Of a stretch of 64,000 nucleotides of DNA, positions 32,012 through 51,568 are shown piece after piece (positions within the stretch are counted from its first letter, which is position 1; each line of letters starts with the position of its first letter). The stretch spans positions 186,001-250,000 of the forward strand of contig CAIRCN010000020.1 in the NCBI GenBank assembly GCA_903877135.1, written 5' to 3'. The stretch comes from an uncultured Opitutia bacterium. GTDB lineage: Bacteria > Verrucomicrobiota > Verrucomicrobiia > Opitutales > Opitutaceae. The position numbers and the translations under genes are program-made. The notes beneath the pieces were generated by a model, which worked only from the letters and a program-made list of their open reading frames with translations, was not told where the DNA came from and searched no databases.

Positions 32012-32773
32012 TCAGGCGACTACGCTTTCGGCGTAACGCAGAATCGCGTCATCAGGTGTCGTGACGATCGGCACAGGACGGCCGTGGCCCTTGCCGCCAT
32101 AGGGCACATTGGAGAGAGCGTTGTAGCAGCAAATGTAGGCGCGGCGCGGTTTGTTGGAGAGATTCGCCTCCGAGGCGTGGAAGGTGTTGCCGTGGAAAAA
32201 CAGCGCGCTGCCGGCCGGCGCCTCGCAGTATTTCATGCCGAGCCGTTCAATGGCAGCATTCACCCGCTCCTGGTCAGCGCCCGCCTGCTGGCCTACGCGC
32301 CCGTGATCGAAGCGACCGAGCAGGTGTGAACCGGGCACGACCTTTAGGCAACCGTTCTCCTTCGTCGCCGGATCTAGGGCGATCATGCACGAAATCAGCC
32401 GTGGGTAGAGGCAGCCATCGCCATACCAGTAGCCGTAGTCCTGGTGCCACTCCCACGCACCGCCGATGCGCGGCTCCTTCAGCATGACTTTGCTGTGCCA
32501 GTGGTAGACATCCTCACGCAGGAGCATGCGGACGTTGTTGACGATCCGCGGACTCGCGCTGACCGCGCCAAACACATCGTCGCCGATGTCGGACCAAAGC
32601 GAGAGCTTACTGGCGCGGCCAGCCGCATCGGCCATGTTGAACTGGTGCTTCGTCGCGCGCCCTTCCTTGGTGACGTTGGCCAGTAGAACCTCGACTTCCT
32701 GCGGCGCGAACACATCGGGCACGAGCACATAGCCGTTACTGTCGTATGCCTGGATCTGATCAAAGGTGAGCAT
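32012..32773 (-). CDS. phytanoyl-CoA dioxygenase family protein
   Basis: A 253-residue Fe(II)/2-oxoglutarate-dependent dioxygenase. The iron-binding pair is His110 and Asp112 in WEWHQDYGYWYGDG, the distal His is in FFHGNTFHASEANLS, and the conserved GSHLLG lies between. Such bacterial members often act on sugars or small molecules beside carbohydrate genes. I took the ATG at 32773 (MLTFDQIQAYDSNGY). It leads an operon with the six-hairpin glycosidase. A 16-base palindrome sits about 31 bases upstream. Confidence 0.88.
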   Translation of the reverse strand: MLTFDQIQAYDSNGYVLVPDVFAPQEVEVLLANVTKEGRATKHQFNMADAAGRASKLSLWSDIGDDVFGAVSASPRIVNNVRMLLREDVYHWHSKVMLKEPRIGGAWEWHQDYGYWYGDGCLYPRLISCMIALDPATKENGCLKVVPGSHLLGRFDHGRVGQQAGADQERVNAAIERLGMKYCEAPAGSALFFHGNTFHASEANLSNKPRRAYICCYNALSNVPYGGKGHGRPVPIVTTPDDAILRYAESVVA

Positions 32774-32803
32774 GGAAAAACGGAGTTTCGCGGAGCCTGC
32801 CCG

Positions 32804-32819
32804 GCGGTCGCGCGACCGC
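32804..32819. promoter_or_regulatory. palindrome upstream of the dioxygenase operon
   Basis: GCGGTCGCGCGACCGC is a perfect 16-base palindrome, 31 bases before the start of the dioxygenase gene. It could be an operator for a dimeric regulator, but in such GC-rich DNA a short palindrome may occur by chance. Confidence 0.3.
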
Positions 32820-32906
32820 AAGTAGCTTCGAGAAGCGGTGTCGCGGCAGCCCTCGCCTCATGTTCTTCCCGCGATCACGCCCCGAGCGGCTCGAAACTGC
32901 GGCGCT

Positions 32907-34469: not shown

Positions 34470-34573
34470 CCATTCAACGTGGCGCGACCCGGGCCGCGAC
34501 GGCAAGAGCGATGTCGCCCGGCGGTTTTTCTTCGCCCTCGCGCCCCGGCGTGCCAGCGTCACCTCTGCCCCGC

Positions 34574-36388
34574 ATGCACCTGCGCCCCTTCCTCCTCATC
34601 GCCACCCTGCTCGTCGCCTCGACGCCGGCCCACGCGCAGGGACTCTACCCCACCGACGCTTCCTACCGCACCGCCTTCCTCGCTCGCTGCACCGAGGCGC
34701 GTGAGGCCATGGCCCGCAAAACCTGGACACCGGGCTACGACTCCCGGGTGCGCAACTACCTTGGCATCGTCAAGGTCGCCACCGGCATCGATGGCGCCAC
34801 CGGTCTCAAATACCTTGAGGACGCCGTCGCCGACCCAAAGCCAGTCTGGGGCTGCTTCGAAGTCTACGCGTTCATGGAGGCCGTGGAGCGCCTCGGCGAC
34901 AAACTCCCGCCCGCCCTCGTCGAAAAAATCCGCACGCGCCTCGCCGCCAGTTTCACCGATGACTTCGGTTTTACCGACAACCACATGCTCCAGATTCACG
35001 TGGCGCGCTACCTGTTTGGCCAGCGCTGGCCCGACGGCCCGGCTTTTGCCGACGGTTCCACCCCGGCGCAGGCCAGCCGCGACTCTGCCGGGTGGATCCG
35101 CCGCTGGATCGACTCCACCGTCACCCGCGGCATGTATGAATACGACTCGCCCAACTACCACCACCTCTACCTCCTCTGTTTCGCCAGTCTTTACGAATTC
35201 TCCAACGACGAGCTGATGCGCCGGCAGTCGTGGATGATCATGCAGGTGCTGCTCGCCGACTGGGCGACTAAGTATCTCGAGGGCAACTGGGTCGGCGCAC
35301 ACAGCCGTGAGAAATACAACCAGGTGCTGCACACCCTCGAGCACACCGGCGCCGCCACGCGCTTCGGCCGGCTCTACTTCGGCGCCGCGCCGCTGCGCCC
35401 CGACCTCAAGGAGTCCGAGGCCGTCGGTCTCGCCGCGCTGCAGAAGTTTTCCGCGCTGCCCATGATCGGCCGCATGGCCACTGACCGCACGCACCCCTAC
35501 CTCCTGCGCGAACTCAAGCCCCCGCGCCGCGGTCCGCGCATCCAGTATGGCGAACCCATGTGGACCTACACCTATGTCGCGCCCGAATTCGCCGTCGGCT
35601 CCTCGTGGGGCGATCTCACCGACGTCGAGCAACACCGCTGGGACCTCACCTGGCTCTCGCCGCAGGACGGCTCCACGTGCTTTTTCATCAACCCCTCCTG
35701 CTCGGTTAAACAGCTCCACCGCTACTTCGAGGATCCAGTGGACAAGCTGCTCGGCGCCATCCTCAGCACGCGCCCCTACTACACCGATCCCAACAAATGG
35801 ATCGAGCCCTCACCCTTCGAGGACGTCTTTCAGCAGGACACCGCCGTCATCGACCTCTACGACATTCCGCCGACCGCCGAGATTCAGCACATCAACGGTG
35901 TCTTTCCCCACTCCATCGCAGAAAAGCGTGAACAGGACGGCTGGATCTTCTGCCGCGCCGACGGCATCTACTTCGGCGTGTGGACGAGTGTGCCCGGCGA
36001 GTGGCACAAGGAAAACGACTACGACCGCCTCACGATCCTCCACCCGAAAACCGCCATCATCCTCGAAGCCGTCGCCGCCAAGGAGGAAAAGAACTTCGAC
36101 GCCTTCTGCGCCCGCCTGCGAGCCAGCCGGCCTCAGTTCGATGAGCGCACGCTGACTGCCACCTACACCAACACCCGCGGCCACAAAATCCAGTTCACCC
36201 ACCTTGGCCCGCGTCTCGTGGACGGCGTCGCCGTGAATCTCGACGAATGGCCGCTCTTCGAAGGCCCGTGGCTGAACGCCCGCCACAACACCGGCATCGT
36301 CACCCTGCAATGCGGCGCCGAGCGCGTGACCCTCGATTTCAAAACCGCCACGTTTCGCACGGAAACCGTGCCCGCTTCCTCTCGCTAG
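34574..36388 (+). CDS. secreted protein of unknown function, possible alpha-toroid carbohydrate-active enzyme
   Basis: A 604-residue protein with a signal peptide (MHLRPFLLIATLLVASTPAHA). The first half is helical (GATGLKYLEDAVADPKPVWG, NYHHLYLLCFASLYEFSND), as in (alpha/alpha)6 toroids of polysaccharide lyases. The second half is strand-rich (GWIFCRADGIYFGVW) and could be a beta-sandwich. I recognise no catalytic signature, so a lyase role is only a guess from architecture and neighbours. Its divergent partner is a transporter, and it converges with the nine-gene operon. Confidence 0.6.
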   Translation: MHLRPFLLIATLLVASTPAHAQGLYPTDASYRTAFLARCTEAREAMARKTWTPGYDSRVRNYLGIVKVATGIDGATGLKYLEDAVADPKPVWGCFEVYAFMEAVERLGDKLPPALVEKIRTRLAASFTDDFGFTDNHMLQIHVARYLFGQRWPDGPAFADGSTPAQASRDSAGWIRRWIDSTVTRGMYEYDSPNYHHLYLLCFASLYEFSNDELMRRQSWMIMQVLLADWATKYLEGNWVGAHSREKYNQVLHTLEHTGAATRFGRLYFGAAPLRPDLKESEAVGLAALQKFSALPMIGRMATDRTHPYLLRELKPPRRGPRIQYGEPMWTYTYVAPEFAVGSSWGDLTDVEQHRWDLTWLSPQDGSTCFFINPSCSVKQLHRYFEDPVDKLLGAILSTRPYYTDPNKWIEPSPFEDVFQQDTAVIDLYDIPPTAEIQHINGVFPHSIAEKREQDGWIFCRADGIYFGVWTSVPGEWHKENDYDRLTILHPKTAIILEAVAAKEEKNFDAFCARLRASRPQFDERTLTATYTNTRGHKIQFTHLGPRLVDGVAVNLDEWPLFEGPWLNARHNTGIVTLQCGAERVTLDFKTATFRTETVPASSR

Positions 36389-36397
36389 ACCCTCGGC

Positions 36398-37066
36398 TCA
36401 CAGCTCGTCCGCCTGAACCGACAGAGCGAGGGCCTGCTCGCAGCGTTTGCGCGATTTCTCCACGCCGAGCGCCTCGAGCCCGAGGGCATTCGCCACGGCC
36501 AGCACGGTGCCGACGCCGCAGAATGGATCGAAAATCACCTTCGCGCCCATCTGATCACGCGCGAACCGCACTGCGTGCGCCGCCGCGCGAATCCCCATCG
36601 CCCGCACCCACGGCTGGCGGCCCGCGTCCGTGATGACATCCGGCAGAGGCAGCACGTCGGGACATTTCAGCGCCCGAGAAACCGCTATCAGGTGCGTGTA
36701 ACCCGGCCGGCCGTAGGTCAGCATTCCTGGCGGCCGGCGGCAGACGATCTTGTGAAAGAGCACGCGTGCGCCAGCGTCCTCAGCAGCGCGAGTGACCATT
36801 GCCCCTTTGTCGATCCACGCGCCGTCGCGTTTGATGTCCGACTGGAAAAACAGCGACGCGCTCTCCTCCGGCACCGCGTCCACGACGAGACGCACAGCGT
36901 TGAGAAACCACGCGCGCCATGCCAGCAGCGCCAGGTTCACCTCCGAGACGTCGGGCAGCGACGTCACGGCGCAGGCGCCCGCGATCCGGCCGCGCGCCTC
37001 CATCCACGGGATCGCATCGGCGCACTCGACGCTGCGCCCGTGTGCTGGCTCAAACGGTGAGGGCAT
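36398..37066 (-). CDS. SAM-dependent methyltransferase (DNA/RNA methylase-like)
   Basis: A 222-residue protein. Its order is the amino-methyltransferase type: catalytic region first (AVTSLPDVSEVNLALL), then the cofactor motif VIFDPFCGVGTVLAVANALG and VEKSRKRCEQA near the C-terminus. The TSLPD takes the place of the usual (D/N/S)PP(Y/W). Related proteins are annotated as DNA-modification-like methyltransferases; the target is unknown. The ATG at 37066 overlaps the end of the GH172-like gene by 17 bases. It is the last gene of the nine-gene operon, and its link to sugar use is unclear. Confidence 0.7.
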   Translation of the reverse strand: MPSPFEPAHGRSVECADAIPWMEARGRIAGACAVTSLPDVSEVNLALLAWRAWFLNAVRLVVDAVPEESASLFFQSDIKRDGAWIDKGAMVTRAAEDAGARVLFHKIVCRRPPGMLTYGRPGYTHLIAVSRALKCPDVLPLPDVITDAGRQPWVRAMGIRAAAHAVRFARDQMGAKVIFDPFCGVGTVLAVANALGLEALGVEKSRKRCEQALALSVQADEL

Positions 37067-38027
37067 CGACCGGCGAATCCTGATACCAGTAGGTGACGAT
37101 ACCGAACCGCACCTGCCCGCTGCCCTCGGCACGCGCGAGTCGCAGCTGGTCGTTGTGAATCTCGTGCTCGTAGTTGATACGCGCCCGCAGCGAGACCGAG
37201 AACCGCACCGGGTCGTTCAGGAGGAAACGGTAGCACGCCAGCCGCGTCTCGCCGTCAGCGTCACTCAGGTAGGTCGTGCCCGAATGATTGTCTGCCCAGA
37301 CCTTGTGCCAGCTCCAACTGAAGCCGAAAAAATCCTCCGTCCCGAGGTAGTTGCAGGTCGGCGCCGTGGCGCCGTCGACCCAGAATTCGTCGTTGCCTTC
37401 GCAGATGCCCTGTTTGTCGGCAAAGTGCGGGCACCGGCTCACCGCGGTGAGATGGCAACCGAGGAAATGCCCCCGCCCATATGTGTTCAACAGCGGCACA
37501 TCCTCCCTCGTAATATCGATGGTGCGGTCGAGCCAGCGCGCGTGGAAATGCCCCGAGTCCACCTCCCATGCCGGCAGCGCCTCGGCCGTCACATAGCCGT
37601 AGCCAAGGACGGTCTTGCCCGTCGTGTTCACCAGCGAAATCTCGATTCCCTCGCGAAACGGCATCGGCAGATAGCAGAACAATGAGTTGGTCGGCCGCTT
37701 CGCCATCACGATACTGGCAAAGTGAAGGGATTCGCTGCCGAAGGAGTCGCAGAAAAAATCGCCAACCGGCGCGAATACAGAGTCAAAGTCATTTCCATCG
37801 TAGCGAACACTGAGAAAAACTCCTCGTGAAAGCTCGGTGCGATCGCCGCCCTCCATGTTCAGCGTGAGATGGATCGTGCGCACGGCACCGGGACCGGTAA
37901 AGCGGCCCAGTTCAACCCGGCCGTGGGGAACCAAGTCGGGTAGTTCAGGATAGGCGTCCCAATGCCAGAGGCTGTTTTGCATCAGCGACCGGTAAGGGCG
38001 AATTTTGCTCAGGTCGGTGGGATTCAT
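37050..38027 (-). CDS. DUF2961 / GH172-like glycoside hydrolase
   Basis: A 325-residue protein of the DUF2961 family, now grouped as glycoside hydrolase family 172 (known members act on fructofuranosides and D-arabinofuranosides). Diagnostic blocks are ELGRFTGPGAVRTIHLTL, GRGHFLGCHL, ICEGNDEFWVDG and YLGTEDFFGFSW, where the Glu residues in the last two are the expected catalytic pair. There is no signal peptide, so it likely acts on imported oligosaccharides. I took the ATG at 38027; a GTG at 38054 is possible. It lies in the operon between the oxidoreductase and methyltransferase genes. Confidence 0.8.
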   Translation of the reverse strand: MNPTDLSKIRPYRSLMQNSLWHWDAYPELPDLVPHGRVELGRFTGPGAVRTIHLTLNMEGGDRTELSRGVFLSVRYDGNDFDSVFAPVGDFFCDSFGSESLHFASIVMAKRPTNSLFCYLPMPFREGIEISLVNTTGKTVLGYGYVTAEALPAWEVDSGHFHARWLDRTIDITREDVPLLNTYGRGHFLGCHLTAVSRCPHFADKQGICEGNDEFWVDGATAPTCNYLGTEDFFGFSWSWHKVWADNHSGTTYLSDADGETRLACYRFLLNDPVRFSVSLRARINYEHEIHNDQLRLARAEGSGQVRFGIVTYWYQDSPVDALTV

Positions 38028-38055
38028 GAAAGTGCGAAGGGTTGCGGTGGCCACA

Positions 38056-39069
38056 TCACATCTCGACGTTGACCAGCCCGCGGTCGGCCGCTTCCTGCGC
38101 CTTTAGCGCCGCGCGGCTCGCCCGGAAAACTTCGGCCGAGGTTAGCCCGTCGTTTGGCTGACCGCGCAACTCGCGGAGAAAGGCCGTGAGATAGCCGCCC
38201 GGATTCGACGCAGCCGGCGGCACGCTGCGGCAGGTTTGCTCGCCCTCCTTGAAAAGCAGGATTTCCTTCGCGGTTAGTGTCGTTTCGAGCACGCCCTCAC
38301 TGCCCCACATCGTCAGCCGCCAATACATCGGCAGCGAGTAACGGTGGCTGTTGGGCGAAACATAGGAAACGTCGCCCATGATACCAGCGCTGTTGTCCAA
38401 CTCTGCTATGAACTGGCCGGCGTTCTTAAAATGCGAATCCGCCGGCACTCCCGCCGCCCAGCAGCGCGCGGCCGTCACGCGCCTGACGCCAAGGCCCGTG
38501 AGCCAGGCAACGAGGTCGAGGCCGTGGATCGAAAGGTCGTTGACGGTGCCGCCGTGCTTGCCCGCTTCGTGATACCACGCCGCGCGCACTCCCGGCAGCA
38601 AAGGATGTTGTCCTTCCAGCGAAGCCGCCCGCACATCGCCGATCTCCCCGGCGCGGACCAGCTCGCGGACCTTGATGAAGATGCCGGAATCGCGCATATC
38701 GAGCATCATGCCGACGGTAAGTGTTTTCGCGGCGGCCAGCCGCACGATCTCGTCGTGCTCGGCCAGTGTCGTGCACATGGGCTTGTCGGCGAGCACGTGA
38801 CGGCCGGCGTTGAGGCAGTCGATCACCACGCGTCCGCGCTTCGCAAACCATTCGCCGACCACGACTGCGTCGCATGTGACCTCCGCTAGCATCGCACGGT
38901 AGTTGGAGTGCGTGAGGCGGACGCGCGCATCGCCCGCGAGCTTTTCCCGCGTCGCCGCGTCCTCCTCGCACATGGCGACAACCTCGATGTCCGGATGGGC
39001 CGATGCGCGCATGACAAGGTCCCAGATGTGCGGATGTTGAAAGCCGATGAAGGCAAAACGAGTTTTCAT
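38056..39069 (-). CDS. Gfo/Idh/MocA family oxidoreductase
   Basis: A 337-residue NAD(P)-dependent sugar dehydrogenase-like protein. An N-terminal Rossmann fold (FAFIGFQHPHIWD) replaces the usual GxGxxG. The EKP-type motif is present as VLADKPMC, and a Gfo/Idh C-terminal domain follows with GTVNDLSIHGLDLVAWLTG holding a likely catalytic His. Members oxidise or epimerise sugars and inositols. It is 12 bases after the ankyrin gene in the operon and probably processes sugars released by the lyase and GH172-like enzymes. The exact substrate is unknown. Confidence 0.88.
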   Translation of the reverse strand: MKTRFAFIGFQHPHIWDLVMRASAHPDIEVVAMCEEDAATREKLAGDARVRLTHSNYRAMLAEVTCDAVVVGEWFAKRGRVVIDCLNAGRHVLADKPMCTTLAEHDEIVRLAAAKTLTVGMMLDMRDSGIFIKVRELVRAGEIGDVRAASLEGQHPLLPGVRAAWYHEAGKHGGTVNDLSIHGLDLVAWLTGLGVRRVTAARCWAAGVPADSHFKNAGQFIAELDNSAGIMGDVSYVSPNSHRYSLPMYWRLTMWGSEGVLETTLTAKEILLFKEGEQTCRSVPPAASNPGGYLTAFLRELRGQPNDGLTSAEVFRASRAALKAQEAADRGLVNVEM

Positions 39070-39081
39070 GTGAGTTTAGCG

Positions 39082-39759
39082 CTATTTTCCTCCGGCGGCC
39101 TTGAGCACCGCGGCGATCTCCAGATTTCCGGCGCGTTCCGCGTGGGCGAGCGGCGTCACGCCGTGGTGGTCCGGCAAATTGGGATTGGCGCCCGCCGCGA
39201 GGAGCAGCCGGACGATCTCGGTGTGCACCGGCCCGCGTTTTTTCTTCATGCTCGCCTCCATCAGCGCAGTCCAACCGAGGTTGTTGATGTGGTTCACGTC
39301 GACCGAGGTCTTGAGCAGCTCGCGCACGTTTTCGATGTGCCCCTTCTCCGCCGCCGGGATGAGCGCCGTCCCGCCGAAGCGGTTGGTGCTCTTCAAATCG
39401 GCCCCGGCCTTGAGCGTGAGGCGAAGAATCTCAAGCCGGCCCTCGGCGCCGGCGTAGAGATACGGCGTGTCCTTGATGTTGTCGCGGGCGTTGACGTCGG
39501 AGCCGGCGGCAATGAGCGGCGCCGCAGCGTCCGGATGATTGCCGTGCGTCGCTGCCATCAGTGCGGTCCAGCCGTGGTCGTCGCGGGCCTGCACGCTCGC
39601 GCCCTGCGCCAGCAAATGCTTCACGGCGGGAACATCTCCGTGCCGTGCGGCTTCGATCAGCTGTTGATCGGCCGAGGGCGCAACCGAAGCGGCGGCGTCT
39701 GCCGCCTTTAGCGTCAAGGCCGCAAACAAGACAGCCGAGAACAGGAGATAATTTTTCAT
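39082..39759 (-). CDS. exported ankyrin-repeat protein
   Basis: A 225-residue protein with a signal peptide (MKNYLLFSAVLFAALTLKAA) followed by about five ankyrin repeats, for example RDDHGWTALMAATHGNHPDA and NNLGWTALMEASMKKKRG. Ankyrin repeats form a protein-binding surface, so a periplasmic interaction partner is likely. It lies 17 bases after the oligogalacturonate-lyase-like gene in an otherwise metabolic operon, where a periplasmic adaptor is unexpected. No enzymatic motif is seen. Confidence 0.85.
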   Translation of the reverse strand: MKNYLLFSAVLFAALTLKAADAAASVAPSADQQLIEAARHGDVPAVKHLLAQGASVQARDDHGWTALMAATHGNHPDAAAPLIAAGSDVNARDNIKDTPYLYAGAEGRLEILRLTLKAGADLKSTNRFGGTALIPAAEKGHIENVRELLKTSVDVNHINNLGWTALMEASMKKKRGPVHTEIVRLLLAAGANPNLPDHHGVTPLAHAERAGNLEIAAVLKAAGGK

Positions 39760-39776
39760 GAGCGATTGGGTGGGAG

Positions 39777-39902
39777 TCAGGCGGTTGAAGGCACCGAGTA
39801 GATTTGGCGGACGCCGGAGCAGTCGGACGTGAACAAAACCTCGCGCTGGTCAGGCGACAACACCGGATGCGGGTGGTTGTCCTGCGTGAGCCACGAAGTG
39901 TT
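39777..39902 (-). pseudogene. C-terminal remainder of the oligogalacturonate-lyase-like gene beyond an in-frame TGA
   Basis: Immediately after the TGA at 39903-39905, the same frame continues for 41 codons to a TGA at 39777-39779. The translation (NTSWLTQDNHPHPVLSPDQ, then REVLFTSDCSGVRQIYSVP) matches the conserved C-terminal segment of PL22 oligogalacturonate lyases, including the Gln-x2-His-x-His metal-binding residues reported for that family. The match shows that the gene once extended, or still extends by readthrough, to 39777. Confidence 0.8.
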
Positions 39903-41069
39903 TCACGCACACAGCGGCACGACCTCCATGCGACCATTCACCCAGTCGACGTTCAAGCGGGAGATGAGATTGCCGCGGCGCTGCATTACGCCGGATTCGT
40001 CCGCAATGGCGTCGGTGATGACGAAGTCGCCGCGGTGGCTCGGGAAAAAATGCCCGTAGAATGACGGCTGGCTGCGCGGAATGGAAATTTCCTGCAGCGG
40101 TGTCGCCGCGTCGACCGGGGCGCGACCAACGAACTGCTCGGGACATTCGCCCGCATCCCAGCGCACGCCGTGGTAGACGACCGCCTCCCCATCCTCCTGC
40201 CAGACCTCGTGCGCCACATCATCGAGCCCGAGATCGGGCGACACTCGGAAACAAATAGGCCGGTCGGGGCGGCGCACCTGCACGCGTTCGCGGCCGTCCT
40301 GTTTCAGCCAAATACGCGCGACGCCAAGCGGCCAGTTCCATTCGTGATTGTAGAGCACGAGGTCGCGGCGGCGCGGATGATACTGGATGTGCGTGACCCA
40401 CGCCGGCTCCTCCCATCGCAAGGCCATCCGGCCAGTCGCCACGTCGACCTTGGCGATTTGGGTCGTAAGGCCGAACTCCGCATATTGCTCCGACATCTCG
40501 CGGTTGCCTTTCCTCACTGCACCAAAATCGAGAATGCGTCGGTCGGCCAAGCTCAGCAGCACGTGCGCTCCCTTTGCATCGAGGTGCGTGTAGCCAACCG
40601 TTCGGTAGGGTGGAATCTCCGCCAACATGCGCCGGGTGCCATCGCGCAGACTCACGGCGTCGAGCTGACCCCAGCCGTCCCCGCGCCCCCAGACAAAGTA
40701 GAGCACGCCCCCAACCGGATCGAGGCACGGGCTGGATTTGTTCAGGCCGTGCGCGGCAATCGCACCATTGAAGAGATAGTCTTCCTTAGAGTCGTTTGAC
40801 CGCGGACGTGCGAAATAGGGATAAGCCTGCATCGCGGGCCCGGGAAATGCCGCCAACGGTTCCATCTTCCCCGTTGCACGATCGATGCGCGCGAGGCTCG
40901 CGCCCTCCAGGTGTTCCGAGTAGGCGTTGGTGATCACGGCGAGCGTGCGGCCGTCTGCCGTCACGCTGTTCGTCGTGAAATAGAGCAACTGGCAATTTAC
41001 CGTGCGCGGGGATTCGGGGCGGGCTGGGTGCATGCGACAGGCAAAATACAGCGTGTGAACGCATCCCAC
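39903..41069 (-). CDS. oligogalacturonate lyase-like (PL22) protein, interrupted by an in-frame stop
   Basis: A 388-residue, seven-bladed beta-propeller protein resembling PL22 oligogalacturonate lyases, which degrade short pectin fragments in the cytoplasm. Recognisable blades include LLYFTTNSVTADGRTLAVI, YTHLDAKGAHVLLSLADRR and THIQYHPRRRDLVLYNHE, with a His that may bind metal. The frame stops at a TGA (39903-39905) just before the last conserved segment, which carries three metal ligands. The N-terminus is also about 25-30 residues shorter than expected, and the start (GTG 41069 or ATG 41033) is uncertain. It may be a decayed gene or a readthrough case. It lies 18 bases after a URO-D-like gene. 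Confidence 0.75.
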   Translation of the reverse strand: MGCVHTLYFACRMHPARPESPRTVNCQLLYFTTNSVTADGRTLAVITNAYSEHLEGASLARIDRATGKMEPLAAFPGPAMQAYPYFARPRSNDSKEDYLFNGAIAAHGLNKSSPCLDPVGGVLYFVWGRGDGWGQLDAVSLRDGTRRMLAEIPPYRTVGYTHLDAKGAHVLLSLADRRILDFGAVRKGNREMSEQYAEFGLTTQIAKVDVATGRMALRWEEPAWVTHIQYHPRRRDLVLYNHEWNWPLGVARIWLKQDGRERVQVRRPDRPICFRVSPDLGLDDVAHEVWQEDGEAVVYHGVRWDAGECPEQFVGRAPVDAATPLQEISIPRSQPSFYGHFFPSHRGDFVITDAIADESGVMQRRGNLISRLNVDWVNGRMEVVPLCA

Positions 41070-41087
41070 GCTGGCGAGCGTCGAAAA

Positions 41088-42110
41088 TCAGCCGCGGGTC
41101 GCCGCGATCATGGCGTCGACGTTAGCAAACGGCGTCTCGACCGCCAGCGTGCATCCCGAGCTGAGCACAAAGCGTCTGTGACCGGCCGCCGCCACCGTGA
41201 CCATCGCCTGCTGCGCGGCGCGGCGCACGTCCGCAGGATTGCCCCGCGCGAGCACGCTCACCGGATCGAGATTGCCCCAGAGGGCGATGCCTGAGCCGAC
41301 AGTGCGGCAGGCCAGCGCCAAGTCGGTCCGCTGGTCGATCTCCAGCCCATCGGCGCCGCTGCGCGCCATGTCGGCGAGAATCGATTCGGCGTTGCCGCAG
41401 ATGTGCAACGAGACGGGTTTGCCCGTGGCGGCTTTCAAACCGGCGATGAGCCGCTGCTCGAACGGCAGCGCGATTTCGCGGTAACGCTGCGGCCCGATCA
41501 GTCCCGCTGGCGAATCGCCGCCGGTCAGCATGTTGGCGCCTGCCGCGGCGAGCGCGCACCCGTAGGCCAGGCCATAGTCGAGGCAGCGTTCCATCAGCGC
41601 CTGCACGAGCGCGGGGTCGTCGTCGAGCGCGAGCATGAGCTCGTTGATGCCCATGAGCGCCGCCGCGAGGGAGAAAGGGTATTGGTCAAAACAGGCTAGG
41701 ACCGCGGCCTCGCCGCCGACCGCCGCCACCACCTGGCGCAGGGCCGCGAGCATCAACGGATAGCGCCCCTGCGTAGCAACGTCCGGAGGCGGGATCGCGC
41801 GCACATCCGCGAGGCACCGCACGAGCGGTTCGCCAAGACCGCCCCACGGCTGGTCCTCGCTCAGTGGCCCGACGCGCGCGCCCATCGCCTGCGCGCTGAC
41901 CCACGTGTCGGCCGACAGACACACCACGTCCGGACGGAAACGTTCGTAAGTGCGGAGGATGGCGCCGGCCAGCGCGTTCGCATCGCTCGTGTAGCGGTGC
42001 AGCGAGACTCCGGTCACGCTCGCGCAGAAATGCACCGTCAGCGGCGCCACCGGCACCCGGGGCACCGGCTCGCCGCGCAGAGCCGTCAGGACAAGTTCCT
42101 TCGACGTCAT
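41088..42110 (-). CDS. URO-D-like (MtaA/CmuA-type) protein 1, zinc-site form
   Basis: A 340-residue protein of the uroporphyrinogen decarboxylase superfamily, in the branch of corrinoid methyltransferases such as MtaA. The zinc-site pattern is complete: His236 and Cys238 in SLHICGNAESIL, and Cys320 in LSSGCTLAVETP. True URO-D enzymes of haem synthesis lack this pattern. I infer methyl transfer rather than decarboxylation. The ATG overlaps the stop of the next upstream URO-D-like gene by four bases (42107-42110). No corrinoid protein is visible in the window. Confidence 0.82.
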   Translation of the reverse strand: MTSKELVLTALRGEPVPRVPVAPLTVHFCASVTGVSLHRYTSDANALAGAILRTYERFRPDVVCLSADTWVSAQAMGARVGPLSEDQPWGGLGEPLVRCLADVRAIPPPDVATQGRYPLMLAALRQVVAAVGGEAAVLACFDQYPFSLAAALMGINELMLALDDDPALVQALMERCLDYGLAYGCALAAAGANMLTGGDSPAGLIGPQRYREIALPFEQRLIAGLKAATGKPVSLHICGNAESILADMARSGADGLEIDQRTDLALACRTVGSGIALWGNLDPVSVLARGNPADVRRAAQQAMVTVAAAGHRRFVLSSGCTLAVETPFANVDAMIAATRG

Positions 42111-43186
42111 GGTGTCAGTGCGTAACGCTCCGGCCGCTCGCGCGCGTGCCGGTCGAGTCCGTCCATGATCGCGCGACAGCTGTTTTGCCAGTGGTCGGGA
42201 GGCATGTTTTCAGTGATGCCTACCAGCAGTCCGTCAACCGAGCCGGCCTCGTTGACCAGATCCACCATGGTCTGCTCGACGGCGGCATCGGACTTGAGGT
42301 GCACCGACGAGGGAAAATTGATCCACAGCACCTTGTCCGGCCACGCGGCGCGCGCCTCGGCGAGCGTCATGTCGGTGTCGGGCGCGGGCGTGAACGCCTC
42401 GATGTAGTCGAGCGGCAAGCCGGCGATGGCAGAGGCGATGATGCGGTTGTTGGCGTCGAAGTGGCAGCCGATGAGCTTGCCATGGCGGTGCATGACCTCG
42501 GCCGCCTCGTGGTAGTGCGGCACAAAATATTCCTCGAAAACTTTTCCGCCGATGATCTCCGGCGTGACGTTGCCGCCGTAGTTCGCGTGCCCCGCGGGCG
42601 ACTGGGCGACGAGCGGGTAAATTTTTCGCCGGTTCTCGACGAGAATCTCGTAGAGGCTCAGCACCTCGTCGCGCCGCTCCATCCACTCCTCGCAAAACTG
42701 CTCCATCTTCATGATGCCGCCCGAAATCAGCTCCTGCAGCGGCTCCAGCCCGAAGTTCGCGCGGAAGATCGCATCCTCGCCGAATTCCTCCTGAGCCCGG
42801 AGAAACTCGGCGTAGGCCGGCTCGTAAACCTCGTCGCGCAGGAAAAAACGGATCACGGCGTAATCCTCGGGCCGCTTGAGCAGCAGTTCGTGCCACCAGA
42901 CGGTGAAGCCGCCGTCCTCGGCGAGCGTCGAGAGTTCGCCGACGGGCGTTTCGTAGCGAGTGCGCGTGAGCTTTCGTTCGCCCTCCCAGTGGACTTGCTG
43001 GGTCACTTTGACGTTGGGCCGGTGAGTCTTGACGACCGGCAGGCGATTCACGACGCACATTCCGCGGTTGCGCAGTTCGCGTTCGGTTTGAGACGTCTGG
43101 ACAAACGCCTCGTAAAACGTAAACGGCACCACGTCGCTGTGTCCGCCGTTCAAGGCTCGTTCGACTCGGGTGCGTGGTGTCATCAT
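42107..43186 (-). CDS. URO-D-like protein 2, His-x-Asp form
   Basis: A 359-residue member of the same superfamily but of a different type. The place of the zinc motif holds GCHFDANNR (His242, Asp244) and the final Cys is absent (LLVGITENMPPDHW). A TIM-barrel core is apparent (LPLDYIEAFTPAPDTDM). This pattern may still bind a metal by His and Asp, or act on another substrate. Its stop overlaps the start of URO-D-like gene 1, so the two are coupled and may form a hetero-oligomer. It starts with MMTPRTRVERALNGG. Confidence 0.78.
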   Translation of the reverse strand: MMTPRTRVERALNGGHSDVVPFTFYEAFVQTSQTERELRNRGMCVVNRLPVVKTHRPNVKVTQQVHWEGERKLTRTRYETPVGELSTLAEDGGFTVWWHELLLKRPEDYAVIRFFLRDEVYEPAYAEFLRAQEEFGEDAIFRANFGLEPLQELISGGIMKMEQFCEEWMERRDEVLSLYEILVENRRKIYPLVAQSPAGHANYGGNVTPEIIGGKVFEEYFVPHYHEAAEVMHRHGKLIGCHFDANNRIIASAIAGLPLDYIEAFTPAPDTDMTLAEARAAWPDKVLWINFPSSVHLKSDAAVEQTMVDLVNEAGSVDGLLVGITENMPPDHWQNSCRAIMDGLDRHARERPERYALTP

Positions 43187-43198
43187 TTGTTGTAAATT

Positions 43199-44212
43199 TT
43201 AGGGTTGGTGCGACCGCGCATAGTCGCACAGGGCACGAAGATTTTCGGCGGGGGTATCACGGGGCACTTCGCAACCCGGACCGACGATGAATCCCGGCCC
43301 GGCGTCGCGGTGGCAGGCCGCCAGCGCGGCGGTGACCGCGGCGGGCGTGCTGTTGCGCAGGGCGGTCACAGGATTGAGGTTGCCGAGCAACACCTGGTCC
43401 GGACCCATCTGGGCGCGGGCCTCGGTGATCGGCACCATCGAGTCGAGGTCTACGATCGCGCAGCCCAGCCGGCCCATGCCCGAGAGGTGAGCGCGGGTGT
43501 TGCCGCAGATGTGGAGGCGGGCCGGCACGCCCAGCGCATGGACGCCGTCCACCAGCCGTTTTTCGTAGGGCCAGACGAATTCTCGGTAAAGGCCCGGACC
43601 GATCAGCGAAGCCGCCGCGTCGCCGATGCCGATCAAGTCCGCCCCGGCCGCGACCTGCGCGCGGGCGAAGTTCAGCTCCATCTCGAGCACGAAGGTGAAC
43701 AGGTTGTGCACAAAGGCCGGATCGTCGAAAAAATCCATCATGAGCGTGTTGATGCCACGCAGGTCTGCGCCTTCCGCGATCGGCCCCTCGATCCAGCCCT
43801 CCACGAGCAGGTCGCGGCCCACCTTTTCCTTCAGGAGACCGACGGCGCGGATCCGGTTGTGCATGCGGCCGCCGCCGAGCGGGTCGGGCTGCCGCAGGCC
43901 GGCGAGTTGGATCTTGTCGGCAAGCCGCGCGTCCTCCTCGACGATCGCTACCGGCTGCTCGTCGAAATACTGTACGCGCGCGCCGCAATCCGCGGCCTCT
44001 ACCGCGGGGTCCGACATGGCGTTGACGTAGTCGAAGCCGAACTCCTCCGCCGTGCGCACCTGCGCCTCGGCCAGCACATGGCAATTCGTGCAGTAGTCGA
44101 GATAGCGCACTCCCGCCAGTCGCGCCGCGAACATCATGGTGATGGGCATCAGCGGCAGCCGGTCCACGGGCTGGCCGGCAAGGTGGGCAAGAATGCGTTC
44201 GCGACCGTTCAT
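43199..44212 (-). CDS. URO-D-like (MtaA/CmuA-type) protein 3, zinc-site form
   Basis: A 337-residue paralog of URO-D-like protein 1. It has His234 and Cys236 in RLHICGNTRAHL and Cys314 in VGPGCEVPRDTP, which complete the His-x-Cys...Cys zinc site of MtaA-type methyltransferases. IPGxY-like segments (SLIGPGLYREFVWPYE) match the family. The start is ATG at 44212. Only 12 and 16 bases separate it from its URO-D-like neighbours, so it is co-transcribed. Substrate unknown. Confidence 0.82.
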   Translation of the reverse strand: MNGRERILAHLAGQPVDRLPLMPITMMFAARLAGVRYLDYCTNCHVLAEAQVRTAEEFGFDYVNAMSDPAVEAADCGARVQYFDEQPVAIVEEDARLADKIQLAGLRQPDPLGGGRMHNRIRAVGLLKEKVGRDLLVEGWIEGPIAEGADLRGINTLMMDFFDDPAFVHNLFTFVLEMELNFARAQVAAGADLIGIGDAAASLIGPGLYREFVWPYEKRLVDGVHALGVPARLHICGNTRAHLSGMGRLGCAIVDLDSMVPITEARAQMGPDQVLLGNLNPVTALRNSTPAAVTAALAACHRDAGPGFIVGPGCEVPRDTPAENLRALCDYARSHQP

Positions 44213-44228
44213 GGCGCGTCAGCTCCGC

Positions 44229-45191
44229 TTAGTAATTTCCCTCGCGACGCCAAACATCCAGCATGATCTCGTAACTGGCGAGCGGCATTCCGGTGTAGAT
44301 GCAGTTGCTCGTGGAGAAAATGTAACCGCCGCCGGGCATGCCGTGCTGCAACGCGTAACGCGCCGCGGCCTCGATCTGCTCTGGCGTGCCAGTGTCCAGC
44401 ATGCCGCAGTGGACGTTGCCGATCAGGCAGACCTCCTTGCCGTAGCGGCGCTTCACCTCGGCGATGTCCACCGCGCCCTGCGGGTCGAGCGAGTGCAACG
44501 CGTGCGGATGCGTCTGCACGAGCTGGTCGATGATCGGCATGATGTTGCCGTCGGTGTGCTTGATCACGTAGTAGCCGAGGTCGCGATAGCCGCGCGTGAC
44601 CTCCGCGAGGTAGGGCGTGACGAATTCGGAAAACTGCGCAGGGCTCAAGAACGGCCCGGTGTTGAAACAGTAGTCCGCGCAGAGTGCGAAACCATCGAGC
44701 CCGCCTGAGCGACGGAGCTTTGCGGCGTTTGCCAATGCATCGCGCACCCAGCCAGCCGTCTGCGCCTTCAGCCGCTCGGGCTCCTCGACCAGCTGACAGG
44801 AAAAATTTTCCATCTCCGTGCCATTCGGCACCGAAAATGTCGCGTCGCCGTGCGCCATAAGGAAGTAACGGTCGCCGGTCCGCTCACGGATGAGATCCAC
44901 CATCCGTTCAATTTCCTCCACTGTGCCGGGATTGGGATGGATGAAAATCGCGCTGTGCTCATAGCGTTCCGCGGTCTTGATGTAGATGTCCGCCATGTCG
45001 CGCCGATGCAGTTCGCGCTCCTTCGGTTCCATCTGCAGCCATTGACCGTAGTCGCGGTGCGAAGGATGCACGCGGCCGAAGGCCTCCATCGTGAGGAAAA
45101 ACACAAGCTCGACGTGTGGCACACGCCCGGTAAGCGGGCGGCGTTCGAGGGCGGTGATGAAGCGTTCGCGTGGAGTCATGGATGTGAACAT
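44229..45191 (-). CDS. URO-D-like protein 4, His-x-Asp form (first gene of the operon)
   Basis: A 320-residue member of the URO-D-like superfamily with His212 and Asp214 in VIKHTDGNIMP in place of the His-x-Cys pair; a Cys (Cys297, in STSNCIYTG) is present near the C-terminus. The core has HPNPGTVEEIERMVDLI and MAHGDATFSVPNG. It leads the nine-gene operon and is preceded by a 15-base palindrome. The start is ATG 45191 (alternative 45179). By resemblance it may be a methyltransferase-related protein, but the reaction is not known. Confidence 0.78.
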   Translation of the reverse strand: MFTSMTPRERFITALERRPLTGRVPHVELVFFLTMEAFGRVHPSHRDYGQWLQMEPKERELHRRDMADIYIKTAERYEHSAIFIHPNPGTVEEIERMVDLIRERTGDRYFLMAHGDATFSVPNGTEMENFSCQLVEEPERLKAQTAGWVRDALANAAKLRRSGGLDGFALCADYCFNTGPFLSPAQFSEFVTPYLAEVTRGYRDLGYYVIKHTDGNIMPIIDQLVQTHPHALHSLDPQGAVDIAEVKRRYGKEVCLIGNVHCGMLDTGTPEQIEAAARYALQHGMPGGGYIFSTSNCIYTGMPLASYEIMLDVWRREGNY

Positions 45192-45384: not shown

Positions 45385-46098
45385 ATGCGGGCTCCCCTGA
45401 AATTTGTTCGTGCGCTCGTCCTGTCCCTGCTGCTCACTGTCGCCGGTGCGGCGCAGGAGGTTCAGCTACACGGACTGGTGTTTGAGGAGTGGGTGCGGGA
45501 CGAGTTTTTCGCCGGTTACCGTCCTCCGAGTTACACGCAAAAGTGGGACATCCCTGCCGCGGTCAACTGCGCGCACGGTGGCGTGCCCGTCAACCTGAAG
45601 GCTGCCAAATACGGCACGCCCGTCGACCTCGGCGACGCACTGCGGCAGTTCGACATCGCCGAGCCCTTCATCTTCGTCATCGGCTACTGGCGCCAGGAGG
45701 GCGATGCGAAACGTTTTGTCAATATACTCAACCTGCGCGTCGAACAGGCGCAGTGGCGCAAACTCTGGGGCGCGGTCACCCGCGCCGACTTGGAGAAACT
45801 CGACGCGCTGATCAAGGACCGCTCACTCGATTTTTACGAGGCTCGGGAACGCGCGCAGGCGATGAAGCACAAGACCCCGTTCACCCAGTCGATCATCGTG
45901 CTCAACCCCAAGATCGACGCGAAGACCCAGCGCCGCCTCCAGTGCAGCCTGCGGTTTGAGGACGTGTTCAAATATATCGCTCCTGAGGCCGACCTGAAAC
46001 CACAGGCACAACCATCTCTATGGGGTGTGACCTTTCCTGACGCCATGGTCTCGAAACCACGCGAGTTTTCACATTCAACAAATCCACATTCACCATGA
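45385..46098 (+). CDS. exported protein of unknown function, possible nuclease-like fold
   Basis: A 237-residue protein with a signal peptide (MRAPLKFVRALVLSLLLTVAGA). The body (FEEWVRDEFF, YTQKWDIPAAVN, VPVNLKAAKYGTPVDLGDAL, FIFVIGYWRQEGD) has the order of elements of a PD-(D/E)XK fold, with Glu, Asp and Lys in plausible positions, but the central acidic residue before the Lys is replaced by Asn. I do not recognise the family, and the nuclease idea is weak. It overlaps the GH5-like gene by ATGA (46095-46098), so the two are co-translated. Confidence 0.6.
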   Translation: MRAPLKFVRALVLSLLLTVAGAAQEVQLHGLVFEEWVRDEFFAGYRPPSYTQKWDIPAAVNCAHGGVPVNLKAAKYGTPVDLGDALRQFDIAEPFIFVIGYWRQEGDAKRFVNILNLRVEQAQWRKLWGAVTRADLEKLDALIKDRSLDFYEARERAQAMKHKTPFTQSIIVLNPKIDAKTQRRLQCSLRFEDVFKYIAPEADLKPQAQPSLWGVTFPDAMVSKPREFSHSTNPHSP

Positions 46099-47447
46099 AT
46101 ATCATCCAAGTGCATCCGACGGGCTGGGGTTTCTGTGAGCGCGGCGGCGGGAGGACGTTTACGCCCTGGGGCTGCAATTACTACGATCCGTTCACCGGCT
46201 GGTCCCCGCGCCTGTGGGAGCAGTTTGACGCGGGACGAGTGAGCGATCACTTCGGCCACATCCGGTCCATCGGCGGCAACGCCATCCGGGTGTTTTCGAC
46301 CGTGATGAACTTGATGGACGGCCCCGGCAAAGTCAGCGCCGCCGGGCTGGCGAAAATGGAGCGGATGCTGACACTCGCCGGCGAACACGGGCTGCGTGTG
46401 ATCTGGTCTGGACCGAGCCTGTGGGAGGGCGCGCCGCCGTGGTGGCACGAATTCGCAACCTACGAATGCTACGCCCGGCCCGACCTGATCGCAGCACAGC
46501 AGGTTGCCTGGCGGGGCATCGCGCACGCCATGCGGGGCCACCCAGCACTGCTCGCCTACGAACTGCACAACGAACCATTCGCGCCGTGGCGTGCGACACC
46601 GGCGGTCCGCGAAGCATGGACACACTGGCGCGCGCAATTCGCCCCGGGCGCACCGATCGATTTTCCTGCCCCGGCCGAGCCGCTCTGCTGGGACTGGAGC
46701 GCCGACCTGCAACGGTTCCGCGAACACATCGCGTCCAGTTACGTCCGTCACATGGTGGCGACGATTCGCGAGTGCGACGACACCCACCTCGTCACGATCG
46801 GGCTGCACCAGAAGAGTGCGCCGTTCGACTGGTATCCCCCCGACCCGTATGCGGCGTTCAACCCGCACCAGCTCGCAGACCTCGTTGACTACACGTCGGT
46901 GCATTTTTACCCGCACCACATTTTCCATCCCAACCTCTACCTCGATCCCGGCGCGACGGCGCAGGGCATGGAGGAAACGCTGCTCCATGGCCGCGCCGTC
47001 GTGCGCTACATGCACACGGCCGGTAAACCCGTCGTCCTCGAGGAGTGCGGCTGGTATGGCGGCGGCTCGGTGATGTTCGCGAATCGCGAGCAACCCGCGC
47101 GCACCGAGGCTGACCAGACTGAGTGGTGCCGCGGCCTCGTCGAAGCCACGCGGGGCGACGTCTGCGGCTGGCTGTTCTGGCCCTACCGCGACACGCCCTC
47201 GTCGCTCGACTCGAGCAAACGCAGCGGATTTTTCGACGCCGAAGGGCGGCTGAAAGACTGGGGCCGCGTCTTCGCCGCACTCGCGCCGGAAATCACCTCC
47301 GCCATTCCTGTGCGTAAACCCGGCACATGTTCATTGCCACTGTCGTGGAAAAAACTCGTGACCGATCCCGAGCACATCAAGAGCTTCCGCGCCGCCTACC
47401 TCGCCGCCTTCCAGCGCGGCGAGACGGTGGATTTCGCTCTCAGTTGA
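46095..47447 (+). CDS. GH5-like glycoside hydrolase (clan GH-A)
   Basis: A 450-residue TIM-barrel glycosidase. The acid/base Glu160 is in ELHNEPFAPW (strand 4) and the nucleophile Glu317 (or 316) in VVLEECGWYGG (strand 7), with FTPWGCNYYDPFTGW at the start and YTSVHFYPH in strand 6. The pattern fits mannanase/cellulase-like GH5 members. There is no signal peptide, and the start is coupled to the exported protein upstream. The substrate is unproven. It converges with the membrane-protein gene at 47458. Confidence 0.8.
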   Translation: MNIIQVHPTGWGFCERGGGRTFTPWGCNYYDPFTGWSPRLWEQFDAGRVSDHFGHIRSIGGNAIRVFSTVMNLMDGPGKVSAAGLAKMERMLTLAGEHGLRVIWSGPSLWEGAPPWWHEFATYECYARPDLIAAQQVAWRGIAHAMRGHPALLAYELHNEPFAPWRATPAVREAWTHWRAQFAPGAPIDFPAPAEPLCWDWSADLQRFREHIASSYVRHMVATIRECDDTHLVTIGLHQKSAPFDWYPPDPYAAFNPHQLADLVDYTSVHFYPHHIFHPNLYLDPGATAQGMEETLLHGRAVVRYMHTAGKPVVLEECGWYGGGSVMFANREQPARTEADQTEWCRGLVEATRGDVCGWLFWPYRDTPSSLDSSKRSGFFDAEGRLKDWGRVFAALAPEITSAIPVRKPGTCSLPLSWKKLVTDPEHIKSFRAAYLAAFQRGETVDFALS

Positions 47448-50757: not shown

Positions 50758-50836
50758 AAGAAAGGTTTTGCGAACGTGGGAAAAATTTTCGTTCAGCGCA
50801 ATCACACTGAGGATTGCGCCGCCAGAACCGCTCTGA

Positions 50837-51568
50837 ATGATCGCCTCCATGCTGACCAAGGCCGCGATCCAGCGTCTGCGCTCGCTCCGCGAAAAAAAAC
50901 ACCGCGAGGCGCTCGGCCTATTTGTCGTCGAGGGCGAGAAGGTCGTCACTGAACTGCTCGCCTCCTCGTTTGTCTTTGCGGAAATCTACGCCACACCCCA
51001 GTGGACCGGTCAACGCACCCACGATATGACGCCCGACGAAATGGCGCGCGCGAGCCACTTTCCCACGCCCTCAAGCGTGCTAGCCGTCGGCAACATCGAG
51101 CGCGAACCGCTGCCCGTCGGGGCGCTCGACCACGGCCTGACGCTCGTGCTCGACGGCGTGCAGGACGCCGGCAACGTCGGCACTCTCCTGCGCGTCGCCG
51201 ATTGGTTCAGCCTCGACCGCGCAGTGCTTTCGCCGGACTGCGCCGACCTCTTTCACCAAAAGGTCATCAACGCCAGCATGGGCTCCTTCGCCCGCGTGCG
51301 CGTCTACACAGCCGACCTGCCCACCGCGCTAGCGGGTCTCGCCGCCCCCGTCCTCGGCTGCGATCTCGCGGGCCAAGATGTCCACGCTCTCCCCGCGCTG
51401 CGCGACGCCGTCATTGTCATTGGCGGCGAGGGACGCGGCCTCACCCAGGCGGTCAGAAAATTTGTCACGCATTATGTGACCATTCCGCGTTTCGGCGGCG
51501 TGGAGTCACTCAACGCCGGGATCGCCGCGGCCATCGTGTGCGACAACCTGCGGCGCACGCAAAAGTAG
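50837..51568 (+). CDS. TrmH/SpoU-family RNA methyltransferase
   Basis: A 243-residue SPOUT methyltransferase that would 2'-O-methylate rRNA or tRNA. The three family motifs are present: VQDAGNVGTLLRVADW (motif 1 with the catalytic Arg), VIVIGGEGRGL (motif 2) and VESLNAGIAAAI (motif 3, trefoil knot). An N-terminal substrate-binding domain precedes them. The start is ATG 50837 or 50849. It is divergent from the fusion gene. The target nucleotide cannot be inferred. Confidence 0.88.
   Translation: MIASMLTKAAIQRLRSLREKKHREALGLFVVEGEKVVTELLASSFVFAEIYATPQWTGQRTHDMTPDEMARASHFPTPSSVLAVGNIEREPLPVGALDHGLTLVLDGVQDAGNVGTLLRVADWFSLDRAVLSPDCADLFHQKVINASMGSFARVRVYTADLPTALAGLAAPVLGCDLAGQDVHALPALRDAVIVIGGEGRGLTQAVRKFVTHYVTIPRFGGVESLNAGIAAAIVCDNLRRTQK

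Follow-up and report, generated by a model that had tools for sequence, protein, structure and literature searches.

A quartet of uroporphyrinogen-decarboxylase-fold genes in an Opitutaceae glycan locus as candidate corrinoid-dependent sugar O-demethylases

Introduction

The known systems nearest to the locus described here are the aromatic O-demethylases and CdmB (PMC13222342) and the mlp clusters (PMC10418091); these two articles, and PMC10033563 below, are cited from excerpts. Three-component corrinoid O-demethylases (OdmB, VdmB, MtvB, MtoB) combine a methyl donor enzyme of the uroporphyrinogen decarboxylase (URO-D) superfamily (MT I) with a corrinoid protein, a second methyltransferase (MT II) and an activase, and act on methoxylated aromatics (PMC13222342). 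Type 1 mlp clusters hold several URO-D-superfamily genes per operon, include members with a His-Cys-Cys (H-C-C) site, and lack an H4folate methylase in the cluster (PMC10418091). Here we describe a run of nine genes within a 64,000-nucleotide stretch of DNA from an uncultured Opitutaceae bacterium (the window; G000:C20:186001-250000), in which four URO-D-like genes, the quartet g6 to g9, are followed by a set of glycan-related and accessory genes, g5 to g1. We conclude that the quartet very probably encodes corrinoid-dependent methyltransferases served by a gene hub on another contig.

The quartet shares its superfamily with the three-component systems, and all their partner classes, as well as genes for oxidation of methyl-tetrahydrofolate (methyl-THF), are also encoded in this genome; the quartet differs in lying in a glycan locus with its partners on other contigs. 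It resembles Type 1 mlp clusters in the features listed above, but its operon has no corrinoid protein or activase (both are on contig C6), its neighbours are glycan-related rather than sulfur- or selenium-related, and the H-C-C pattern of Mlp proteins is found in part of the quartet, g7 having H-D-E and g9 H-D-N. Many parallel methyltransferases per genome are likewise described for Acetobacterium dehalogenans, with 26 methyltransferase systems (PMC13222342); here we found 41 non-HemE URO-D-like open reading frames (ORFs), one stand-alone corrinoid protein and one activase. What sets the present locus apart from the known systems as excerpted is its glycan setting and its proposed partners in trans, which would serve a very large paralog set.

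Removal of sugar O-methyl groups during glycan breakdown is described for aerobic P450 demethylation of 6-O-methyl-D-galactose from porphyran, a monooxygenase reaction that yields formaldehyde (PMC10033563), whereas the route proposed here would be corrinoid-dependent and oxygen-independent. That P450 was the enzymatic sugar-demethylation route that turned up in the open-licence literature, and no system combining corrinoid or URO-D demethylation with methylated sugars, or with the terms Verrucomicrobi or Opitut, turned up there. O-methyl groups hinder sugar use, and a corrinoid route would let low-oxygen bacteria strip them and gain formate. It would also explain what many genes annotated as 'uroporphyrinogen decarboxylase' do, such as the 41 non-HemE ORFs of this genome.

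Results

The nine-gene run has two separable parts

The genome, G000, comprises 4.23 Mb in 87 contigs and is 97% complete. Scanning the named genomes with g7 gave 33 loci, 12 of them Opitutaceae-type (L136-L145, L150 and L157; L139 and L140 are contigs of G016 and G039), which together with the window make the 13 loci compared throughout; gene counts over these loci are minima, as contig ends clip several of them. Positions 36398-45191 of the window hold nine close minus-strand ORFs, listed here in 5' to 3' order:

g9, 44229..45191, minus strand: URO-D-fold protein, putative substrate:corrinoid methyltransferase; site H-D-N (HTDG...SNC); PF01208 79 bits; 13/13 loci
g8, 43199..44212, minus strand: MtaA-type URO-D-fold protein, H-C-C; PF01208 218.7 bits; 9/13 loci
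g7, 42107..43186, minus strand: divergent URO-D-fold protein, fold taken from an AlphaFold model; relatives across many phyla
g6, 41088..42110, minus strand: MtaA-type URO-D-fold protein, H-C-C; PF01208 225.4 bits; 13/13 loci
g5, 39903..41069, minus strand: PL22-like (oligogalacturonate-lyase-like) protein; PF14583 23.9 bits, cut-off 30
g4, 39082..39759, minus strand: ankyrin-repeat protein with an apparent signal peptide (by eye); PF12796 119.4 bits
g3, 38056..39069, minus strand: Gfo/Idh/MocA oxidoreductase; PF22725 and PF01408
g2, 37050..38054, minus strand: DUF2961 (GH172-type) protein; PF11175 152.9 bits, cut-off 27
g1, 36398..37132, minus strand: S-adenosylmethionine (SAM)-methyltransferase-like protein, start uncertain; PF01555 30.8 bits, residues 198-234 only

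A first-pass annotation, made from the sequence alone, had described nine minus-strand genes here with gaps of at most 28 bases. All nine ORFs were found and the observation is confirmed overall, but not the gap limit: the intergenic distances from g9 to g1 are 16, 12, -4, 18, 143, 12, 1 and -83 bases, the last of which hinges on the start of g1. The 143 bases between g5 and g4 as called arise because an in-frame TGA ends g5 early; the frame homologous to g5 orthologs ends at 39777, 17 bases from g4. A scan for promoters and terminators gave 0 promoter-like and 7 terminator-like sites, none exceeding shuffled sequence. The run is more than chance, because the quartet genes recur jointly in the 12 further loci at 69-90% identity. 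It is made of two separable parts, the quartet g9-g8-g7-g6 and the glycan/accessory set g5-g1.

The quartet has the URO-D fold and is distinct from HemE

The first-pass annotation named four URO-D-like proteins of the corrinoid-methyltransferase kind, distinct from the URO-D of haem synthesis. The family assignment stands for all four: g6, g8 and g9 exceed the PF01208 cut-off (23.9 bits), and g7, which has no Pfam or NCBIfam match, is placed by the fold of its AlphaFold model (pLDDT 94.8, from a 31-sequence alignment). This model aligns with URO-D (VIA-align Z 23.1, rmsd 3.5, 301 residues aligned) and with the MtaA structure 4ay7 (Z 21.7, rmsd 3.7, 291 aligned), followed by core methionine synthase as the next structural class (Z 15.7). 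Identity is 34% between g6 and g8 and 16-21% for the remaining pairs, and the quartet members are old paralogs.

Scores against the hemE profile are 83 bits for g6, 72 for g8 and 23.7 for g9, with no match for g7, against a cut-off of 302.95. The HemE of this genome is a separate gene on C69 (383.9 bits). Among the 59 URO-D-like sequences of this study, which we compared and placed in a FastTree tree (free of O-demethylase references for g7 and g9), the C69 protein is the sole carrier of RQAGRY, a motif that we take to be the N-terminal hallmark of HemE. The idea that the quartet is true HemE is ruled out by the absence of this motif and by the sub-threshold hemE scores. The best PDB relative of both g6 and g8 is MtaA 4ay7 (E 2e-24 and E 3.1e-25), and both score below the TIGR01463 mtaA_cmuA cut-off (162.8 and 164.7 bits; cut-off 235.4).

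In the columns aligned to H, C and C of g6, we found H-C-C in g6 and g8, H-D-N in g9 and H-D-E in g7, and the same residues recur in the quartet orthologs from G016, G039 and L142. H242, D244 and E326 of g7 are invariant in the 31 homologs of alignment A5 (homologs from L136, L141, L144, L145, L150, L152 and L159 were left out). According to the excerpted text of Kountz and Balskus, S or Se is preferred at H-C-C sites, and O-methyltransferases have carboxylates or non-coordinating residues in place of one or both Cys (PMC10418091).

Corrinoid and folate partners are encoded in trans

As first noted, there is no corrinoid protein gene nearby, which holds for the run and the flanks examined. Elsewhere in the genome we found one stand-alone corrinoid-binding protein, at C6:170859-171497, with matches to PF02607 and PF02310 and with 1y80 as its closest PDB entry (E 6.9e-54); the NCBIfam models MtgC (193 bits) and pyl_corrinoid (173 bits) both match below their cut-offs. 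The second PF02607 match of the genome lies within a 962-aa MetH-like frame. A single activase is encoded 0.3 kb from the C6 corrinoid protein (PF14574 222.6 bits, over cut-off; AcsV 337.9, below). We considered a TGA inside the activase match as a recoding site and rejected it: it is the ordinary stop of the ORF at 168956-170590, and the profile match runs past it.

Around the corrinoid protein and activase, C6 holds eleven URO-D-like genes (nine with Pfam matches, two without) at about 160.9-178.1 kb. This run adjoins a homocysteine-methyltransferase/methylenetetrahydrofolate reductase (MTHFR) fusion, and we refer to the whole of C6:160.9-180.1 kb (L038, L039) as the hub. Its gene order, read from ORF lists, is common to G000, G016 and G039 as far as the contigs reach. 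The two hub proteins that match no Pfam family (424 and 361 aa) are part of the URO-D tree and stand outside the genome-wide count of 42 URO-D-like ORFs, which comprises 39 Pfam matches, g7 and two g7-like ORFs. Besides HemE, the site columns of these 42 show H-C-C in 7 and other patterns in 34.

A second run, C4:40635-45736 (L173), joins genes for an AraC-type regulator, MTHFR with DUF5981, a pterin-binding methyltransferase and a formate-THF ligase (904.6 bits). The methyltransferase exceeds the PF00809 cut-off and is nearest the methyl-THF:corrinoid type (PRK07535 107 bits, cut-off 259); the other two PF00809 matches of the genome are FolP-like (305-aa frame) and MetH-like (the 962-aa frame), judged by length and score. 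From these profile matches, the C4 run is predicted to be the methyl oxidation branch, and all partner classes of an O-demethylase system appear to be encoded in trans, outside the operon. The assignment of the quartet to the corrinoid-methyltransferase kind is upheld by this partner set and by its separation from HemE. Another MTHFR with DUF5981 is encoded on C10 (L078), beside a URO-D-like gene.

The quartet travels with the corrinoid hub

We surveyed 115 related genomes, our own included, scoring at most 16 URO-D candidates per genome, so that counts near 16 are lower bounds. At least two URO-Ds were found in 33 of 34 activase genomes versus 8 of 81 others (Fisher p 4e-20, treating genomes as independent with phylogeny not corrected). 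g7 has matches in 10/115 genomes, and its orthologs at 62% identity or more occur only in G000, G016, G033 and G039. Matches to the C4 methyltransferase (E 1e-20) occur in 15/115 genomes, all activase-bearing; its orthologs at 63% or more are in exactly G000, G016, G033 and G039, and the other 11 matches are at 32-38%. The chance of this four-genome coincidence is 1.4e-7 assuming independent genomes, which genomes are not.

Sister genomes sharpen this pattern. G001, the sole genome in the set from the same genus as G000, has one URO-D and no activase. G039 has both hub and quartet, whereas G072 of the same genus has one URO-D, no activase and no C4-type methyltransferase match. The syntenic site in G072 keeps the neighbours Gfo-AKR, DUF237, g5, g1, the exported gene and PhyH, along with a g3 fragment, and is without the quartet. 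The quartet thus goes with the corrinoid hub, and the glycan genes persist without the quartet. This contrast between G072 and G039 is the best evidence for corrinoid dependence of the quartet and shows that g5-g1 are independent of it; the hub/quartet difference between sister genomes also makes the idea directly testable.

Substrate hints favour a methylated sugar over an aromatic

The remaining 21 g7 loci carry g7 relatives at 41-69% identity without orthologs of g6, g8 and g9 (weak g9-like matches occur in L159 and L166). They come from Planctomycetes, Phycisphaerae, Lentisphaerae, Kiritimatiellaeota, Chloroflexi/Anaerolineae, Firmicutes, Caldisericota, Hebobacteria, Armatimonadetes and others, and one (L155) is from a Verrucomicrobia metagenome-assembled genome (MAG). 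Sugar-catabolism genes adjoin some of these relatives. L161 has a rhamnulokinase-type gene (446.9 bits, cut-off 527.95), a rhamnulose-1-phosphate-aldolase/dehydrogenase-type gene (301.2 bits, cut-off 567.75), L-fucose-isomerase (FucI-type) domains over the Pfam cut-off and a PHP protein; by eye, the gene order in L162 is the same. L168 has an FGGY kinase, a class II aldolase, Gfo, GntR, an amidohydrolase, a weak sugar-isomerase match and one unknown. Other neighbours are GH20 (L160), GH123 (L163), GH32 with a major facilitator superfamily (MFS) protein (L155), a GH109-type gene (L147) and Gfo (L166); L156 has GH38, mannonate dehydratase and an amine oxidase, L158 an abhydrolase and L159 another URO-D. 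In our own genome, a URO-D-like gene lies 73 bases from rhaM (L-rhamnose mutarotase) on the same strand (C67:5386-6996, L087).

At the window locus, the sugar-related genes are the PL22-like gene, DUF2961, a GH5-like gene and rhamnosidase-type matches; the rhamnosidase-like signals are borderline or partial. The first-pass annotation had proposed a uronate-containing glycan, and its glycan part is supported by the recurrence of glycan-related genes at the locus. The uronate part rests mainly on a truncated PL22-like gene: PL22 and one distant mannonate dehydratase are the uronate hints, and deoxy-sugar hints outnumber them. Both the genes beside g7 relatives in other phyla and the borderline matches at the locus hint at rhamnose/fucose-type sugars rather than uronate. 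Whether the natural substrate of the quartet is an O-methylated sugar or oligosaccharide is, in our judgement, an evenly balanced question.

Unlikely, though to be taken seriously, is that the quartet, like OdmB, VdmB, MtvB and MtoB, is a set of corrinoid O-demethylases whose substrates are methoxylated aromatics (fragments of lignin or humic matter), with the glycan genes as bystanders. The mosaic order of the locus, described below, would suit bystanders, and methoxylated aromatics are what the named superfamily O-demethylases act on in the excerpted account (PMC13222342). Neither inspection by eye nor profile searches brought up an aromatic-degradation gene in the neighbours examined, and this reading would have to accommodate both the glycan-related genes that recur across loci and the sugar-catabolism genes beside g7 relatives in other phyla.

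One g7 relative, in a Lentisphaerae MAG, is directly followed by a DUF1638-hydantoinase/oxoprolinase fusion (L149:1440-4253). DUF1638 occurs beside corrinoid methyltransferases.

The quartet is conserved within a mosaic locus

Across the 13 loci, g9, g7 (the query) and g6 are present in 13 each and g8 in 9, and the accessory genes are less constant: g5 in 8, g4, g3 and g2 in 5 each, and g1 in 3. Co-conservation of the run therefore holds for the quartet, with g8 the most variable member, and is patchy for g5-g1. All nine genes occur in the window only, and L142 has eight. g6 is detached from g7 in three loci (L141, L143 and L145), and contig ends cut g9 in L144 and lie inside the g3 ortholog of G039 (L140). 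Further recurring genes are U10, another URO-D-like gene (H-C-C; 19.9 bits, below the Pfam cut-off), in 5/13 loci, a 930-aa gene whose rhamnosidase-type jelly-roll match is partial and below cut-off, in 4/13, and an MFS gene near the L-lactate family in 2/13. We had considered, from G016 and G039, that g1-g5 are an insertion confined to the window, and dropped this idea as g1-g5 recur in other loci.

This variable cargo raises the possibility, which we consider improbable, of a chance-built island, in which a variable slot, bounded on one side by the Gfo-AKR gene and on the other by the exported gene at 34511, gathers unrelated genes and the quartet is functionally unlinked to the glycan genes. 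The parts do occur separately: the G016 quartet and three of the four quartet genes in L137 lack g5-g1, and G049 and G072, with one URO-D each, carry close g5 orthologs without the quartet. Yet a limited cargo set (g5, g4, g3, g2, U10 and the 930-aa gene) recurs beside the quartet in varying orders, and several of these genes look carbohydrate-related, the 930-aa gene having its partial glycosidase-domain match.

The sites of g6 and g8 bear on another reading, to which we assign a small probability: that the substrates of the quartet are methyl-sulfur or methyl-selenium compounds, as for mlp clusters, with g6 and g8 as its core. Both proteins are H-C-C with mtaA_cmuA as their best score, g6 is in 13/13 loci, and the excerpted source ties H-C-C to S/Se methyltransferases and describes mlp clusters as likewise lacking an H4folate methylase (PMC10418091). 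Set against this, g7 (H-D-E) and g9 (H-D-N) are also in 13/13 loci, no sulfur or selenium gene was seen among the locus genes examined, and the operon is without a corrinoid protein or activase. Finally, a role of the URO-D-like proteins as haem/tetrapyrrole or other lyases rather than corrinoid enzymes, suggested by the family name and by the radical SAM gene described next, is very hard to credit given that RQAGRY is found only in the C69 HemE, that extra URO-Ds track the activase, and that g6 and g8 have MtaA as best PDB relative.

In four of the 13 loci (L137, L138, L139 and L145), a HemW/HemN-like radical SAM gene lies divergent from the quartet, upstream of g9; the L145 copy matches PRK08629 over cut-off.

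A possible route for O-demethylation

Our best explanation, which we think has about an equal chance of being right or wrong, is that the quartet removes methyl groups, through UroD-superfamily corrinoid chemistry, from an O-methylated sugar or oligosaccharide that the glycan enzymes of the locus set free. The first step of this route would be activation of the methyl ether by g7 and g9, which would hand its methyl group to Co(I) of the stand-alone C6 corrinoid protein; the C6 activase would keep this cobalt reduced. The C4 methyltransferase would then move the methyl group to tetrahydrofolate, and MTHFR and formate-THF ligase would oxidise it to formate with a gain of ATP. The thiolate-type, MtaA-like g6 and g8 may carry out a thioether or thiol step, or take methyl groups off the corrinoid protein and hand them to a thiol acceptor; their role is the weakest step of the mechanism. 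The demethylated sugar would be processed by g3, g5, g2 and the flanking glycosidase-like genes. The proposal draws on gene content, the g7 fold, the metal-site residues, the machinery in trans and co-distribution, from which we infer every reaction, the substrate, the role of g6 and g8, and the service of all enzymes by one corrinoid protein. Of the first-pass idea that URO-D-like proteins demethylate an O-methylated uronate glycan, it retains the corrinoid-type enzymes and the glycan setting and gives up the uronate and the full co-conservation.

Several observations weigh against this explanation. Two of the four quartet members have S-type H-C-C sites, including g6, one of the genes found in every locus, and metal-site residues are no proof of mechanism, because CdmB, a relative within the UroD superfamily, works without zinc (PMC13222342). 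Of the 34 activase genomes, 19 have no C4 methyltransferase match to supply the acceptor enzyme. g5-g1 and the quartet are separable both ways in a mosaic locus, and the partners may be insertion neighbours. The neighbour families of g7 relatives are 23 hand-picked genes from 11 of the 21 loci, with no background control, and among the other ten loci we could make out, by eye, a clear sugar operon in L162 alone. The 33 g7 loci, many of them on short contigs, yielded no relative of the hub's corrinoid protein or its activase. In our own genome, many scattered URO-D genes adjoin housekeeping genes (by eye).

More tentatively, the genome may follow a hub-and-spoke arrangement, in which about forty dispersed URO-D-fold demethylases, each acting at its own methylated sugar position, all rely on a single corrinoid protein and a single activase. 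Such a system would be oxygen-independent and spread over Opitutaceae and individual bacteria from other phyla, with the g7 family as a demethylase of methyl-deoxysugars (rhamnose/fucose-type).

Glycan, accessory and flanking genes

The call of g5 as oligogalacturonate-lyase-like survives in part. Its PL22 match (23.9 bits) does not reach the Pfam threshold of 30, and the TGA at 39903-39905 ends the window copy about 42 residues before the ortholog ends. The lost part holds QDNHPHP, aligned to Q-V-T-H-P-H at residues 350-355 of the PL22 structure 3pe7. This Q-x-x-H-x-H stretch, whose residues we take to bind the catalytic metal in PL22, is invariant in the 5 g5 orthologs of alignment A4 and lies beyond the stop in the window copy. 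The orthologs align with PL22 oligogalacturonate lyases (3pe7, 3c5m), although remotely (E about 1e-13). The profile match to g5 in the genome spans 1 internal TGA, no second g5 copy was found in the genome, and intact copies are present in related genomes; the stop may reflect either a genuine truncation or a fault in the assembly.

The remaining gene calls of the first-pass annotation mostly stand. g4 is an ankyrin protein with an apparent export signal, g3 has both Gfo/Idh/MocA domains, and g2 is well over the cut-off for DUF2961, equivalent to GH172, with PDB matches that include difructose dianhydride I synthase/hydrolase (7v1v) and exo-alpha-D-arabinofuranosidase (8ic8). For g1, a SAM methyltransferase is indicated by PF01555, in a match limited to the short segment listed above.

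Four flanking genes were also characterized:

45385..46098, plus strand: divergent flank gene, 237-aa protein with no Pfam match; 5/13 loci
46095..47447, plus strand: divergent flank gene, GH5-like; PF00150 45 bits, cut-off 23.5
34511..36388, plus strand: convergent flank gene for a protein of about 600 aa that looks exported; 7/13 loci and L183
30686..32005, minus strand: six-hairpin glycosidase-like protein with a borderline alpha-L-rhamnosidase domain; PF17389 25.0 bits (cut-off 24.5), PF22422 29.8 (cut-off 27)

The protein of 34511..36388 has no Pfam or NCBIfam match, and a PDB profile search gave one match (E 0.65); we discarded its AlphaFold model (pLDDT 46.1).

PhyH-family dioxygenase genes lie at 32012-32821 (minus strand) and 53886-54902 (plus strand) of the window, and the first neighbours the locus even without the quartet (L183, L184). 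That they are an oxygen-dependent counterpart is pure speculation. A 733-aa ORF at 48748-50949 (minus strand), with a Gfo/Idh/MocA part and an aldo-keto reductase part, is a conserved flank found in 9/13 loci.

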